Both the position numbers and the translations under genes were made by a program. A stretch of DNA of 40,764 nucleotides from Gammaproteobacteria bacterium (GTDB lineage: Bacteria; Pseudomonadota; Gammaproteobacteria; HK1): NCBI GenBank assembly GCA_011775625.1, contig JAABYT010000042.1, positions 9,860-50,623 of the forward strand. The letters run 5' to 3'. How positions within the stretch are numbered: the stretch's first letter is position 1; each line of letters begins with the position of its first letter. The notes beneath the pieces were generated by a model, which ran no database searches, was not told where the DNA came from, and saw only the letters and a program-made list of their open reading frames with translations. Positions 11,036 through 15,167 of this stretch are shown one piece after another.

Positions 11036-11066
11036 TTGACCGGCGCCGGCGGTGGTGGCGTAATAC
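11036..11066 (+). promoter_or_regulatory. Candidate promoter of the tetR-mutase operon
   Basis: TTGACC (11036-11041) and TAATAC (11061-11066) are good -35 and -10 matches, though the 19-nt spacer is long. The operator at 11067-11080 begins directly after the -10 box and would cover the transcription start, a geometry that suits autorepression. Confidence 0.45.
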
Positions 11067-11080
11067 CAAACAACCGTTTG
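11067..11080 (+). promoter_or_regulatory. PsrA-like operator CAAAC-N4-GTTTG upstream of tetR
   Basis: The inverted repeat CAAAC AACC GTTTG lies 17 nt before the tetR start codon. An overlapping arrangement, AAACAA-CCGT-TTGTTT, gives 6-nt arms. The first form matches the remembered binding pattern of PsrA, a TetR-family fatty-acid-responsive repressor (G/C-AAAC, 2-4 nt, GTTT-G/C). It is the only AT-rich island in a very GC-rich stretch. Confidence 0.65.
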
Positions 11081-11097: not shown

Positions 11098-11691
11098 ATG
11101 CCAGTCGCCGCACCCGCAGGCACACCCCGGCACGACAACCGGCGTCGGGACGTTCTCGATGCCGCCGCCGGTCTCATCTCCCGGCACGGGTATCACGCCA
11201 CCTCCATGCGCGACATTGCCCGCGCCACCGGCATGCTGCCAGGGTCCATCTACTATCACTTCGCTTCCAAGGACGCGCTGCTGGTGGCGGTGTACGCCGA
11301 GGGCGTGCAGCGCATCGCCGGGCGCGTGGATCGCGTCGTGGCTGCACAGACGACACCCTTGAAGCGTCTGGAGGCAGCCTGCGTCGCGCACCTGGAGATG
11401 CTGCTCGCCGACAGCGACTACGCGCAGGTCGTCGTGCGCGTTCTGCCGCAGGACGTGCCGGCGGCGAGCGCACGCCTCACGGCGCTGCGCGACGACTACG
11501 AGGCGCGTTTCCGCCGTCTCATTGCCGCGCTCGGGCTGCCGCGCGCCCGCCGGCGCTACGCGCGCCTCACCCTGCTCGGTGCCTTGAACGCTGCCCAGTC
11601 CTGGTACCGGCCGGGCGGCGACGCGCCGGCGCGCATCGCGCGGGGCATTCTCGCGTGCCTGCGCGAGCCGCTCGAGGCCGCGAAGCGATGA
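11098..11691 (+). CDS. TetR-family transcriptional regulator of the mutase operon
   Basis: A 197-residue one-component regulator. The N-terminal DNA-binding domain has the TetR helix-turn-helix (HATSMRDIARATGMLPGSIYYHFASKDALL, about residues 38-67); the C-terminal helical domain would bind a ligand and dimerise. Its own promoter carries a PsrA-like operator, so it most likely autorepresses the operon and is released by an acyl-CoA related to the mutase substrate; that is inference. Its stop overlaps the start of the B12-binding subunit by 4 nt (ATGA), so the operon is translationally coupled from the first gene. The ligand is unknown. Confidence 0.9.
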   Translation: MPVAAPAGTPRHDNRRRDVLDAAAGLISRHGYHATSMRDIARATGMLPGSIYYHFASKDALLVAVYAEGVQRIAGRVDRVVAAQTTPLKRLEAACVAHLEMLLADSDYAQVVVRVLPQDVPAASARLTALRDDYEARFRRLIAALGLPRARRRYARLTLLGALNAAQSWYRPGGDAPARIARGILACLREPLEAAKR

Positions 11692-12116
11692 TATCGCGAC
11701 GCGCGGAGCCGGTGCGCGTGCTCGTCACCAAGCTCGGCCTCGACGGACACGACCGGGGCAGCCGTGTTGTCGCGGCCTTTCTGCGCGATGCCGGCATGGA
11801 GGTGATCTACACGAGCCCCTGGCAGGACGTCACCGCGGTCGTGCAGCTCGCGCTCCAGGAGGACGTCGACGTCGTCGGCGTCAGCTCGCTCGCCACCGAC
11901 CATCTGCTCGTGCCGAAGCTCACCGAGGCCCTCGCGCAAGCGGGACTGGGACACATACGCGTCGTGGTCGGCGGCATCGTGCCCGACGAGGACGAGAGCA
12001 TGTTGAAGAGATCGGGGGTGAGTCACGTCTTCCACCCGGGAAGCACCCGCGAAGAGATCGTCGCGGAAGTCGACGCACTCGCACGCGCCGCGCGTCGAGA
12101 ACGTGATGGCGATTGA
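11688..12116 (+). CDS. Acyl-CoA mutase, small cobalamin-binding subunit
   Basis: A 142-residue stand-alone B12-binding domain. It has the base-off cobalamin motif D-x-H-x-x-G as LDGHDRGS (D19, H21, G24), with His21 the predicted lower axial ligand of cobalt, followed by VDVVGVSSLATDH and VVVGGIVPDED, the conserved loops around the nucleotide tail. It pairs with the next gene as a split adenosylcobalamin mutase, as in isobutyryl-CoA and 2-hydroxyisobutyryl-CoA mutases. Starts at the ATG at 11688, overlapping tetR by 4 nt. An earlier ATG at 11655 lies inside tetR and would add 11 unlikely residues. Confidence 0.92.
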   Translation: MISRRAEPVRVLVTKLGLDGHDRGSRVVAAFLRDAGMEVIYTSPWQDVTAVVQLALQEDVDVVGVSSLATDHLLVPKLTEALAQAGLGHIRVVVGGIVPDEDESMLKRSGVSHVFHPGSTREEIVAEVDALARAARRERDGD

Positions 12117-12134: not shown

Positions 12135-13817
12135 ATGAGTCAGCGACCGATTCAGTTGCCGTTGCCGGGATTCGACACCGCCCGGGCGCGTTGGCAGGAC
12201 GCCTACAACCAGCAGATGCCTGGAGAGAAAACCCGGCGCAATCGCTCGGGCATCGAGATCCGGCCGCTGTACACCCCGCAGGACTGGCGCGGCGAACGCT
12301 ATCTCGAGCAACTGGGTTTCCCGGGCGAGGTGCCGATGACCCGCGGTATCTACCCGAGCATGCACCGCGGCCGAACGTGGAGCCAGCGCCAGCTCATCGG
12401 GCTCGGGACACCACAGGATTACAACGCGCGGCTCGAGCGAATCCTTGCGGCGGGCGGATCGGCGCTGAGTCTGATTCCATGCAACTCGGTCTACCGCGGC
12501 TACGACGCCGACGAGGTGGACGCGGTTCTGCTCGGCACCTGCGGCGCGGTGGTAAACACCGTCGAAGACATGCAAGCCTGCTTCGAGGGCGTCGACATCG
12601 GATCGATCTCGACAGCCATGAACGACCCCCTGCCCTTCACGCTGCTGGCACTGCTGCTCGCGGTAGCGAAGCAGCGCGGCGTGCCCTGGTGCAAGGTGAC
12701 CGGCACCTCGAACCAGAGCGACTACATCTCCCACTTCGTCGCCAACCACATGTTTTTTCGCATCGCGCTGCCGGGCTCGCGCCGGATTCTCGTCGATCAC
12801 ATCGATTTTGCCGCACGCAACCTGCCGGGCTGGAACCCGCTCTCGGTGGTCGGTCAGCACATGCAGCAGGCCGGTGCCACACCCGCCGAGGCCATGGGCC
12901 TGACGCTGTCGACCGCGGTGCAGTACGCCGAGGATTGCATCGCGCGGGGCATGGAGCCGGATGTGTTCCTGCCGCGCTTCACTTTCTTCTTCGATATTTC
13001 CATGAGCTTCTTCGAGGAGATCGCGAAGATGCGCGCCGGGCGGCGCATCTGGTGCCGGCTCACACGCGAGCGCTTCGGCGCGCGCGATCCGCGTGCCTGG
13101 CGTTTCAAGTTTCACGGCCAGACCTCGGGCGTCGACCTGACCCGCCAGCAGCCATTGAACAACATCGCGCGAGTCACGACCCAGGCAATGGCCGGAATTT
13201 TCGCAGGACTTCAGTCGCTGCACACCGACTCGTACGACGAGGTGCTGAGCGTGCCCACCGAAGACGCCGCACGTATCGCCGTCAGCACCCAGAACATTCT
13301 GCGCGAGGAGGCGCACCTCACCGATGTCATCGATCCGCTCGGTGGCTCGTACTACGTGGAGAGGCTCACCGACGACATGGAGGAGGCGATCATCGCGGTC
13401 ATGCAGCGCATCGAGGAGGCGGGCGGCATGTACCACGCGGCCGAATCCGGGCTCGTGCAATCGATGATCGGCACCTCCGCGCTCGCCTTTCAGGAGCAGG
13501 TCGAGAGCGGCGAGCAGACGATCGTCGGCGTGAATGCCTACCGGGTTGAAGAAAACTCCGACGCGCACGCGCCGCTCGCGCGCCCGCGAGCCGAGGCCAT
13601 GCAGGCGCAGCTCGACGCCCTCGCCCGCTACAAGCGCGGGCGATCCATGGGCGAGGTGCGAGCCGCGCTCGACAGGCTCGCCCGCAGCGTCGCCGACGAA
13701 GGCGACAACGTCTTCGAAAAGGTCGTCGATGCGGCGATTGCCGGCGCTACCCACGGCGAGATCGTCGCAAAGCTGCGCGAGGAGATGGGATTCGGCGAGC
13801 CCCTGGTGCAGGTGTGA
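12135..13817 (+). CDS. Adenosylcobalamin-dependent acyl-CoA mutase, large catalytic subunit with non-canonical substrate pocket
   Basis: A 560-residue TIM-barrel subunit of the methylmalonyl-CoA mutase superfamily, lacking the C-terminal B12 domain, which is the preceding gene. Family landmarks are [31 protein letters not shown] (catalytic His242), [25 protein letters not shown] and [10 protein letters not shown]. Aligned by eye to Propionibacterium MCM, R80, R85, S112, Q194 and H242 match Arg82, Arg87, Ser114, Gln197 and His244. However, Tyr89 is Leu87, the DLPT loop after Phe117 is replaced (IPCNSVYRG), and Arg207, which holds the substrate carboxylate, becomes Asn204 (Ala203 or His205 if gaps shift). 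It is therefore unlikely to act on methylmalonyl-CoA. GGAGG lies 5 nt before the ATG. No epimerase or propionyl-CoA carboxylase is nearby. Confidence 0.9.
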
Positions 13818-14764
13818 GCCAGGCCCTCTCCCGGACCGAGCGCATCGCCGCGCTGATGAACGGCGACCCGGCCGCGCTGGCCCGCGCCATCAGCGACGTC
13901 GAACGCCAGCGACCGGCCGCGCGCAGCACGCTCGAGGCCATCCAGCCCCATCTCGGCCGTGCCCGGGTCATTGGCGTCACGGGCGTGCCCGGTGCCGGTA
14001 AGTCGACGCTGATATCGCGCTATGTCACCGAGCTCAGGCGTGCCGGGCGGCGCGTCGGCGTCGTCGCGGTCGACCCCAGCAGCCCGATCTCCGGCGGCGC
14101 GGTGCTCGGCGATCGCATTCGCATGGCCGAGCACGCGACCGACCCCGGAGTCTTCGTCCGCTCGCTCGCCTCGCGCGGTCACGCCGGCGGGCTTTCGCCG
14201 ACAGCGACCCATGTCGTGGATCTCATGGATGCCGCCGGATGGGACCGCATCATCGTCGAGACCGTCGGCGCCGGACAGGGCGAGGTCGACATCGCGGACG
14301 CCGCCGACGTGCGCATCGTGGTGTCCGCTCCCGGACTCGGCGACGACGTGCAGGCGCTCAAGGCGGGCATTCTGGAGATCGCCGACGTTCTCGTGGTCAA
14401 CAAAGCCGATCTCGCCGGCGCGGATCAGACCGCAGCACAGCTCGCGTCCATGCTTGCGCTGCGCGCCGAGCACGCCCGGGACGTGAGCATCTGCAAAACG
14501 ACGGCGACCACCGGCCAAGGCGTCGCCGAGCTTGCCGTCATCGTCGAGACCCGGCTTGCCGCGGGCGATTCGCGACGCGGCTGCGCCGCACAACGCGCGC
14601 GCCGCATGGTGGCGACGGCCGCCGGGAATCTGCTCACCAGGGAGCTGCGCGAGCTCGAAGCGCCATGGCTGCAGGAGATCTGCGAGAGGCTGCAGCGTGG
14701 GCAAAGCGATCTGGAGAGCGCCGCGCGGGCCGTGCTGCGCTCGGCAAAGCTCGTCGATGAATGA
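13814..14764 (+). CDS. meaB: MeaB/ArgK-family GTPase chaperone of the B12 mutase
   Basis: A 316-residue SIMIBI G protein that gates adenosylcobalamin delivery to acyl-CoA mutases and protects them from inactivation. Visible motifs are the P-loop [12 protein letters not shown], the switch regions [22 protein letters not shown] and [33 protein letters not shown], and the base-recognition NKAD. The family-typical VETVGVGQSE reads [10 protein letters not shown] here, a mild variation. Starts at a GTG overlapping the mutase stop by 4 nt (GTGA). Placement directly after the mutase subunits implies a dedicated partner. Confidence 0.93.
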
Positions 14765-15167
14765 CATCGGCAAGCGCGTGAAGGGTTTGGCGGCTCGCGA
14801 CGCCTTCGTCGCGTATCTCGGGGCGGAGTGCGTGGACGCGGGGCCGGGGATGGCCGTCGTGCGCATGACGGTCGGCGAGCAGCACGTGAACTTCAACGGC
14901 ACCTGCCACGGCGGCGTGCTCTTCTCGCTCGCCGACACCGCCTTCGGCCTGGCGTCCAACTCCCACGGCCGGGTCGCCGCGGCCGTCGGTGCTCATATCG
15001 GCTTCACCGCGCCGGTGCGCGTGGGCGACACGCTGATCGCCACCGCAACCGAGCTGAGCCGCAGCAATCGCATCGGCACTTACCGCGTGGACGTGCGCAC
15101 GAGCGACGACGCCACGGTGGCGACATTCACGGGAACGGTCTACATCGCTGAGCGCGAGCACCCCTAG
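14757..15167 (+). CDS. PaaI-type hotdog-fold acyl-CoA thioesterase
   Basis: A 136-residue single-domain hotdog thioesterase. The active-site helix shows VNFNGTCHGGVLFSLADTAF, matching the PaaI pattern N-x-x-x-x-C-H-G-G with a downstream Asp (the LAD motif), then GAHIGFTAPVRVGDTLIATA. PaaI enzymes hydrolyse aromatic or bulky acyl-CoAs and often act as a safety valve that frees CoA. Its ATG overlaps the meaB stop by 8 nt (ATGAATGA), making it the last gene of the coupled operon. Together with the altered mutase pocket it suggests that the pathway handles an acyl-CoA that can accumulate. Confidence 0.88.
   Translation: MNDIGKRVKGLAARDAFVAYLGAECVDAGPGMAVVRMTVGEQHVNFNGTCHGGVLFSLADTAFGLASNSHGRVAAAVGAHIGFTAPVRVGDTLIATATELSRSNRIGTYRVDVRTSDDATVATFTGTVYIAEREHP

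Follow-up and report, generated by a model that had tools for sequence, protein, structure and literature searches.

The palindrome CAAAC-AACC-GTTTG at positions 11067–11080 of the 40,764-nucleotide stretch of DNA analysed here (the window) is very probably the operator of the TetR protein encoded immediately downstream. This reading follows from the conservation of the box, its dependence on the presence of tetR, its place behind a TTGAC promoter and the match between the type of box and the recognition helix of the regulator. With good confidence, comparison of orthologous loci points to a dedicated autorepressor that would control its own five-gene operon through this site.

The initial annotation had read CAAAC, AACC and GTTTG at this place, and all three are there letter for letter: the half-sites occupy 11067–11071 and 11076–11080 on the plus strand, the spacer lies at 11072–11075 and the box stands 17 nt ahead of the tetR start codon (11098). 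Upstream of this predicted TetR-dimer operator we find, on the same strand, a putative −35 element, TTGACC (11036–11041), of which TTGAC recurs upstream of the box at orthologous sites. A putative weak −10 element, CGTAAT (11059–11064), is the best fit (four of six positions) 17 nt past the −35 and is separated from the operator by 2 nt. A strict σ70 promoter scan of the window called no promoter. Thus, the −10 box that had been placed directly before the palindrome is weak in the window itself; its position is nevertheless backed by orthologous sites that carry TTGACC-N17-TATAAA with the same geometry of promoter and box.

Five genes follow head to tail on the plus strand. The first, tetR (11098–11691), encodes a TetR_N + TetR_C_24 regulator of 197 amino acids with the recognition helix MLPGSIYYHF (residues 46–55); both PF00440 (the TetR_N HTH) and PF17932 (the ligand domain) score above their gathering thresholds. 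Its stop codon forms an ATGA overlap with the start, chosen by eye, of the gene for the B12-binding small subunit of a mutase (11688–12116; PF02310 and TIGR00640 above cut-off). Next come the 560-residue large subunit of the acyl-CoA mutase (12135–13817; PF01642 and TIGR00641 above cut-off) and a MeaB-type G-protein chaperone (13814–14764; TIGR00750, 299.8 bits against a cut-off of 240.75), whose GTG start overlaps the mutase stop codon. The operon ends with a PaaI-type hotdog thioesterase (14757–15167) that matches PF03061 and, marginally, TIGR02286 (119.2 versus 118.9 bits). Overlaps at three of the four junctions, with start codons partly chosen by eye, suggest that the genes from tetR to the thioesterase form a single transcript.

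One can imagine that the TetR on the box activates transcription, or that it mainly regulates itself while the mutase genes use a separate promoter. Some TetR proteins do act as activators; however, the operator lies just past the −10 element, the usual position for repression, and the overlapping genes suggest one transcript, so that we regard this possibility as quite unlikely. Autorepression of the operon is the reading that we pursue below.

The initial annotation had named a lack of conservation ahead of orthologous operons as one result that would refute its reading of the box; the comparison made here did not refute it. In a scan for related mutases, of which the best 80 of 308 loci were retained, a TetR with at least 45% identity was found in 58 of the 80, its gene preceding that of the mutase everywhere but in L056. 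Altogether there were 65 loci with a TetR match; exclusion of L004–L006 and L080 (identity below 45%) left 61 tetR genes, including three from the window's own taxonomic family, and removal of L061 (upstream region too short) and of the near-identical upstream regions L007, L011, L041, L045, L049 and L051 left 54, a set that still includes L056 with its tetR downstream of the mutase. The strict form CAAACN4GTTTG is present within 220 nt upstream of 27 of these 54 non-redundant tetR genes, and the core AAACN4GTTT upstream of 30. Outside these upstream regions, the loci (443,029 bases) contain no strict match and two core matches.

With spacers of 0–3 and 5–7 nt, both forms are absent from all 54 upstream regions. 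A spacer of 8 nt yields 2 strict and 26 core matches; we interpret the 26 as one and the same site where another GTTT follows (AAACN4GTTTGTTT). The variant GAAAC...GTTTC, with spacers of 0–8 nt, is found in none of the 54. With a refined matrix, 44 upstream regions contain a site scoring 14 bits or more, and low-scoring sites in L023, L027, L038 and L082 may be due to chance. In 33 of the 44 (window included), TTGAC precedes the box by 26–38 nt, a placement seen in 11 of 699 control windows. Among −10 elements with spacers of 15–19 nt, the best-fitting one mostly lies 17–18 nt past TTGAC, and the box begins −1 to 8 nt after it, so the box covers the expected transcription start.

The box also follows the regulator. 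Mutase operons that lack this tetR were found at 22 loci, of which 18 had a readable upstream region after L014, L029, L047 and L054 (upstream region too short) were left out; for L053, where the small subunit was not found, the stretch upstream of the large subunit was taken. The strict box is present in none of the 18 and a loose match in one. Of 17 genomes of the window's family, 3 contain the mutase ortholog (identity of 73% or more), and the same three contain the tetR ortholog (68% or more).

In the 3,084,059-base genome from which the window comes, the exact form CAAACRNNYGTTTG occurs once, at the window site, and with at most one mismatch it has 9 sites versus 10 for the control. The bare core AAACN2-4GTTT gives 25 matches versus 27 for the reversed control pattern; it is at chance level and by itself meaningless. 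On the strength of the core count one might take the palindrome for a functionless chance inverted repeat, but conservation in distant bacteria and the lack of strict matches elsewhere in the loci contradict this idea and leave it a negligible probability. G001, a genome of the same genus, has a single exact site, at the orthologous tetR; sites with at most one mismatch number 22 versus 16 for the control, so there may be further sites beyond tetR in that genome. In G007 (32 versus 31 control sites at the same tolerance) the orthologous site deviates from the exact form at one position, and that genome has an exact site at a different place. For the 24 core matches other than the window site, the surrounding DNA was inspected over as much as about 2 kb to either side, or less near contig ends: 23 fall within an open frame of 100 amino acids or more in a mechanical two-strand list, and the one in L087 lies outside. 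Several shortly precede another open frame, by 27 nt in L087 and L094, 24 nt in L097 and 12 nt in L111; weak additional sites may exist in this genome. The genome-wide set of boxes ahead of fatty-acid genes that the initial annotation envisaged is not supported by these counts, and the repressor probably controls little outside its own cluster.

We next consider how the type of box relates to the recognition helix of the adjacent regulator. A palindrome of the form ..AACN4GTT.. is present in 46 of the 54 upstream regions and was not seen in the other 8, some of which have near versions; in L036, L043, L046 and L048 the palindrome used overlaps the CAAAC site of the matrix in a different register. 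With helices of the M-x-x-G-S type (n = 41), position 1 of the box is C in 40 cases and A in one. With helices that carry Thr47 and Ala50 (for example, VTVGAIYVHF; n = 5), it is T in every case, as in TGAACGAACGTTCA. This T is thus seen in 5/5 Thr47/Ala50 loci versus 0/41 others (Fisher p = 7e-7, not corrected for kinship). These five TetRs (L016, L027, L028, L031 and L079) have TGAAC- or TAAAC-type boxes and appear to represent a natural change of operator type inside one TetR family. A third type, CTAAC...GTTAG, accompanies the helix MKAGSMYYYF in three TetRs and MLAGSVYHHF in one; L003 and L066 have CTAAC in one half-site only.

In a phylogeny from which the helix was left out, the helix type changes three times and the box type three times. 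Well-supported branches provide two independent pairs, both in the same direction, and the kinship-corrected p is 0.5, a value that reflects the inability of the test to reach significance with just two pairs. Six plasmid loci found later, outside the derivation of the motif, all fit the pairing of helix and box types; four of their boxes were retrieved by the pattern and two by eye. L152, L155 and L156 combine MLPGS helices with CAAACN4GTTTG, and L151 combines the helix VTPGAVYFHV with the palindrome TAAACGATCGTTTA (pattern in all four cases). L154 has the helix MLPGSLYYHF and CAAGCAATCGTTTG at the same place, and L153 has VTPAAVYFHV and TAAATGGTCGTTCA, again at the same place; both of these boxes were missed by the pattern and seen by eye.

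The top sequence match of the window TetR among solved structures is DarR (about 36% identity). A study of DarR (PMC10636190) gives its operator as ATACT(N)4AGTAT, present also at darR's own promoter, with the same 5-4-5 layout as the window box, and describes base contacts of Lys44 and Gly45 in the crystal structure. In our alignment, the helix positions that differ between box types map around these two residues, and the base-reading Lys44 corresponds to Pro48 of the window TetR. DarR has c-di-AMP/cAMP as its ligand and reads other bases.

The palindrome had been likened to the site of PsrA, and the pattern given for that site proved correct: the literature (PMC13104628; PMC10304680) gives the PsrA site as C/GAAACN2-4GTTTG/C, which the window box matches, and the first of these sources gives the site at rpoS as TTCAAACN4GTTTGAA. 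The same source places an autoregulatory PsrA site near the start of its own gene, a second likeness to the arrangement in the window. The TT...AA flanks of the rpoS-type site are missing at the window box, and, as reported above, its genome has no excess of boxes over the control.

The regulator itself differs from PsrA. Against the PsrA model NF053516 (Vibrio-based, judging by its name) the window TetR scores 32 bits, the cut-off being 300; this cut-off is narrow, as a single one of 18 strong matches in the class exceeds it while all 18 score 145–316 bits. These 18 matches (E of 1e-40 or better) come from 274 genomes of the class. The helix VNLAAVNYHF or a near form is found at 16 of the 18 loci, the other two giving no helix match, and we adopted it here as a hallmark of PsrA, a criterion derived in the present analysis; the window helix is not of this type. 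A tblastn search with the window TetR returned significant matches at 16 of the 18 loci, with 27–45% identity and a best E of 5e-10. Eight of the 16 extend past residue 130 and the remainder end in the first half, up to residue 101; L144 gave a chance-level match only, and L127, the locus above the cut-off of 300, gave none. We consider this similarity to the PsrA-model proteins weak.

Of the two options offered in the initial annotation, a PsrA-related autoregulator and a global fatty-acid regulator acting at this site, the first holds in part. The comparative evidence favours autoregulation, and the model score and the helix speak against a PsrA identity. The second is not supported, as the window TetR is the only match to the PsrA model (E of 0.001 or better) in a genome that is 94.8% complete. 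The alternative that a PsrA-type repressor owns the box in trans, the local TetR using another site, does draw on a likeness of boxes that is real, given that the core AAACN4GTTT, common to PsrA sites including that of rpoS, is present upstream of 11 of 16 PsrA-model relatives (for example, TTCAAACGAACGTTTGAA at L133), the full C/G-flanked form being present in 5 and neither form in 5. Yet no second PsrA-model protein is there to act, a single exact box is present genome-wide, and the box tracks both the presence of this tetR and the type of its recognition helix. We rejected PsrA acting in trans as a candidate on the first two of these grounds and give it a very low probability. The low PsrA score, the different helix, the weak similarity and the single model match lead us to read the box in this genome as the mark of a repressor with a local role, and a fatty-acid regulon has left no trace here. 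A PsrA-like box alone is then no proof of PsrA or of a fatty-acid regulon, as a different TetR clade appears to use the same core.

One further part of the initial reading is supported: the box precedes the operon of an acyl-CoA mutase. Leu87, Asn204 and Gln241-His242 of the large subunit are present at 83 of 83 loci (chosen by similarity, at least 63% identity, window and near-duplicates included). The positions of Tyr/Ile/Leu and of Arg/Gln/Asn have active-site roles in mutases of this kind. The window mutase has neither the motifs RQYAG (Tyr) and MVR (Arg) of methylmalonyl-CoA mutase (MCM), in place of which it has Leu87 and Asn204, nor the motif RQIAG (Ile) with Gln of 2-hydroxyisobutyryl-CoA mutase (HCM). 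Among canonical mutases of relatives, L168 shows both the Tyr and the Arg motif and L163 the Arg motif; the HCM motif and Gln are seen in the solved HCM 4r3u and in Xaut_5021. The only other MM_CoA_mutase match in the window's own genome is L146 (C58:46260–47813), in a 1083-residue open frame that, from QADILKEDQGQNT and its length, looks like the fused IcmF type; a canonical methylmalonyl-CoA mutase was not found in this genome (94.8% complete).

Among 426 matching records of a plasmid collection, the best is Xaut_5043 of Xanthobacter autotrophicus Py2, with 68.1% identity to the window mutase and the same Leu, Asn and GlnHis. Its cluster, Xaut_5045–5041 on pXAUT01, has the gene order of the window (tetR, B12 subunit, mutase, MeaB and a PaaD/PaaI thioesterase), and TAAACGATCGTTTA begins 31 nt ahead of its tetR. 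By identity, gene order and signature, the window mutase appears to group with this enzyme. The Xanthobacter TetR differs from that of the window (49% identical, helix VTPGAVYFHV, a T-type box in place of CAAAC), and so does the operon, which has CoA ligase and ABC transporter genes downstream. We take Xaut_5043 to be the pivalyl-CoA mutase, an enzyme with a C5 acyl-CoA substrate; Kitanishi and colleagues reportedly characterised a pivalyl-CoA mutase from X. autotrophicus in JBC in 2015, and a search for pivalyl together with Xanthobacter retrieved no article from the open-access literature. By analogy, interconversion of pivalyl-CoA and isovaleryl-CoA, reportedly catalysed by an X. autotrophicus enzyme, may be an activity of the window mutase. 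Besides Xaut_5043 (Leu/Asn), the same plasmid (L159 and L151) encodes another split B12 mutase, Xaut_5021 (Ile/Gln), and each of the two has a MeaB-like ATPase gene of its own.

The genes near the mutase, though each kind is present in a minority of the best 80 loci, agree with acyl-CoA catabolism: AMP-forming CoA ligases form two clusters (14 and 7 loci), branched-chain-type ABC-transporter ATPases and short-chain dehydrogenases are present at 10 loci each and acyl-CoA dehydrogenases at 8, the clusters being named from one scanned representative each. In the plasmid loci L151, L152 and L155, the operon is followed by genes for a CoA ligase and a branched-chain-type ABC transporter. In L154 (Sulfitobacter) and L156 (Pseudosulfitobacter) the operon is followed by genes for a carboxyltransferase, a crotonase, a biotin carboxylase and an acyl-CoA dehydrogenase, of which the crotonase alone scores above its family cut-off, and by a second TetR gene whose product shares 39% identity with the window TetR across 157 residues. 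Such a set of enzymes resembles those of leucine/isovaleryl-CoA or acyclic-terpene breakdown, and the data fit both. In L153, a plasmid of Sphingobium sp. YC-XJ3, tetR and a thiolase gene are present twice with identical protein accessions, with IS6100 and ISSp1 between the copies, and a CoA-ligase gene is present twice in slightly different forms, which suggests a duplication of the mutase cluster. In some Burkholderiales a BadI gene lies near the mutase operon (L036:8073–8861, 468.4 bits against a cut-off of 467.6). A BadH-like dehydrogenase in L045 is below its cut-off (213 versus 431), and BadI and BadH-like clusters are also near the mutase in L043, L045 and L046. This neighbourhood points elsewhere, hinting at alicyclic acid breakdown.

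An AlphaFold model of the window TetR (mean pLDDT 91) was compared with solved structures, Z values being recomputed for the entries of Foldseek's list and differences within 1 counted as ties. The closest structural neighbours are 3ccy (Z 19.9), AibR with isovaleryl-CoA and DNA (19.4), DarR (19.2) and Bacillus FadR with stearoyl-CoA (18.8). AibR (PDB 5k7z/5k7h), which responds to the C5 acyl-CoA isovaleryl-CoA, superposes with an rmsd of 2.7 over 178 residues and is 24% identical to the window TetR, the regulator proteins alone being compared. TetRs without acyl-CoA binding, DarR for one, reach comparable Z values. From the model, an acyl-CoA ligand is plausible for the window TetR. Because the mutase groups with Xaut_5043 and the model resembles acyl-CoA-binding TetRs, with AibR among the closest, isovaleryl-CoA, pivalyl-CoA or a similar short branched acyl-CoA may be the ligand.

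The inducer could instead be long-chain, either a fatty acid or an acyl-CoA, which would parallel PsrA and FadR. FadR with stearoyl-CoA is indeed among the structural neighbours, and the AMP-forming ligases near the mutase could be read in the same direction. We nevertheless think it unlikely, for AibR with isovaleryl-CoA matches no less closely (a tie), the mutase groups with an enzyme taken to act on C5 acyl-CoA, and the genome has no excess of boxes; nothing here singles out a long-chain fatty acid as the signal.

The proposed autorepression by the local TetR would work as follows. A TetR dimer would occupy the 14-bp palindrome just past the −10 element, where transcription is expected to start, and would keep RNA polymerase off the operon. 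When the acyl-CoA handled by the mutase accumulates, it would bind the C-terminal domain of the TetR, and the ligand-bound repressor would leave the operator and allow the operon to be read. The site, its conservation, the promoter geometry at orthologs, the dependence of the box on tetR, the pairing of helix and box types and the single exact copy in the genome come from the sequence; the binding, the sign of the regulation, the single transcript and the ligand are inferred.

The mechanism is the standard loop of a TetR autorepressor. The novelty lies in linking it to this clade of mutases and in the pairing of helix types with box types. We found no description of the regulation of this clade in the open-access literature, with subscription papers mostly outside the search. 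A broader proposal is tentative, and we think it less likely than not to hold: that this TetR family is a dedicated sensor of C5-branched acyl-CoA for a pivalyl-/isovaleryl-CoA mutase pathway, carried with the operon, on plasmids too, across Proteobacteria and, judging by the titles of the records, a few other phyla; that it reads a PsrA-like operator through a different helix; and that changes at helix positions 47, 48 and 50 switch it between CAAAC-, CTAAC- and TGAAC/TAAAC-type boxes. If the autorepressor reading is true, a clade of B12-dependent acyl-CoA mutases would have an operator and a regulator assigned to it, and the TetR would become a candidate sensor for branched short acyl-CoA.
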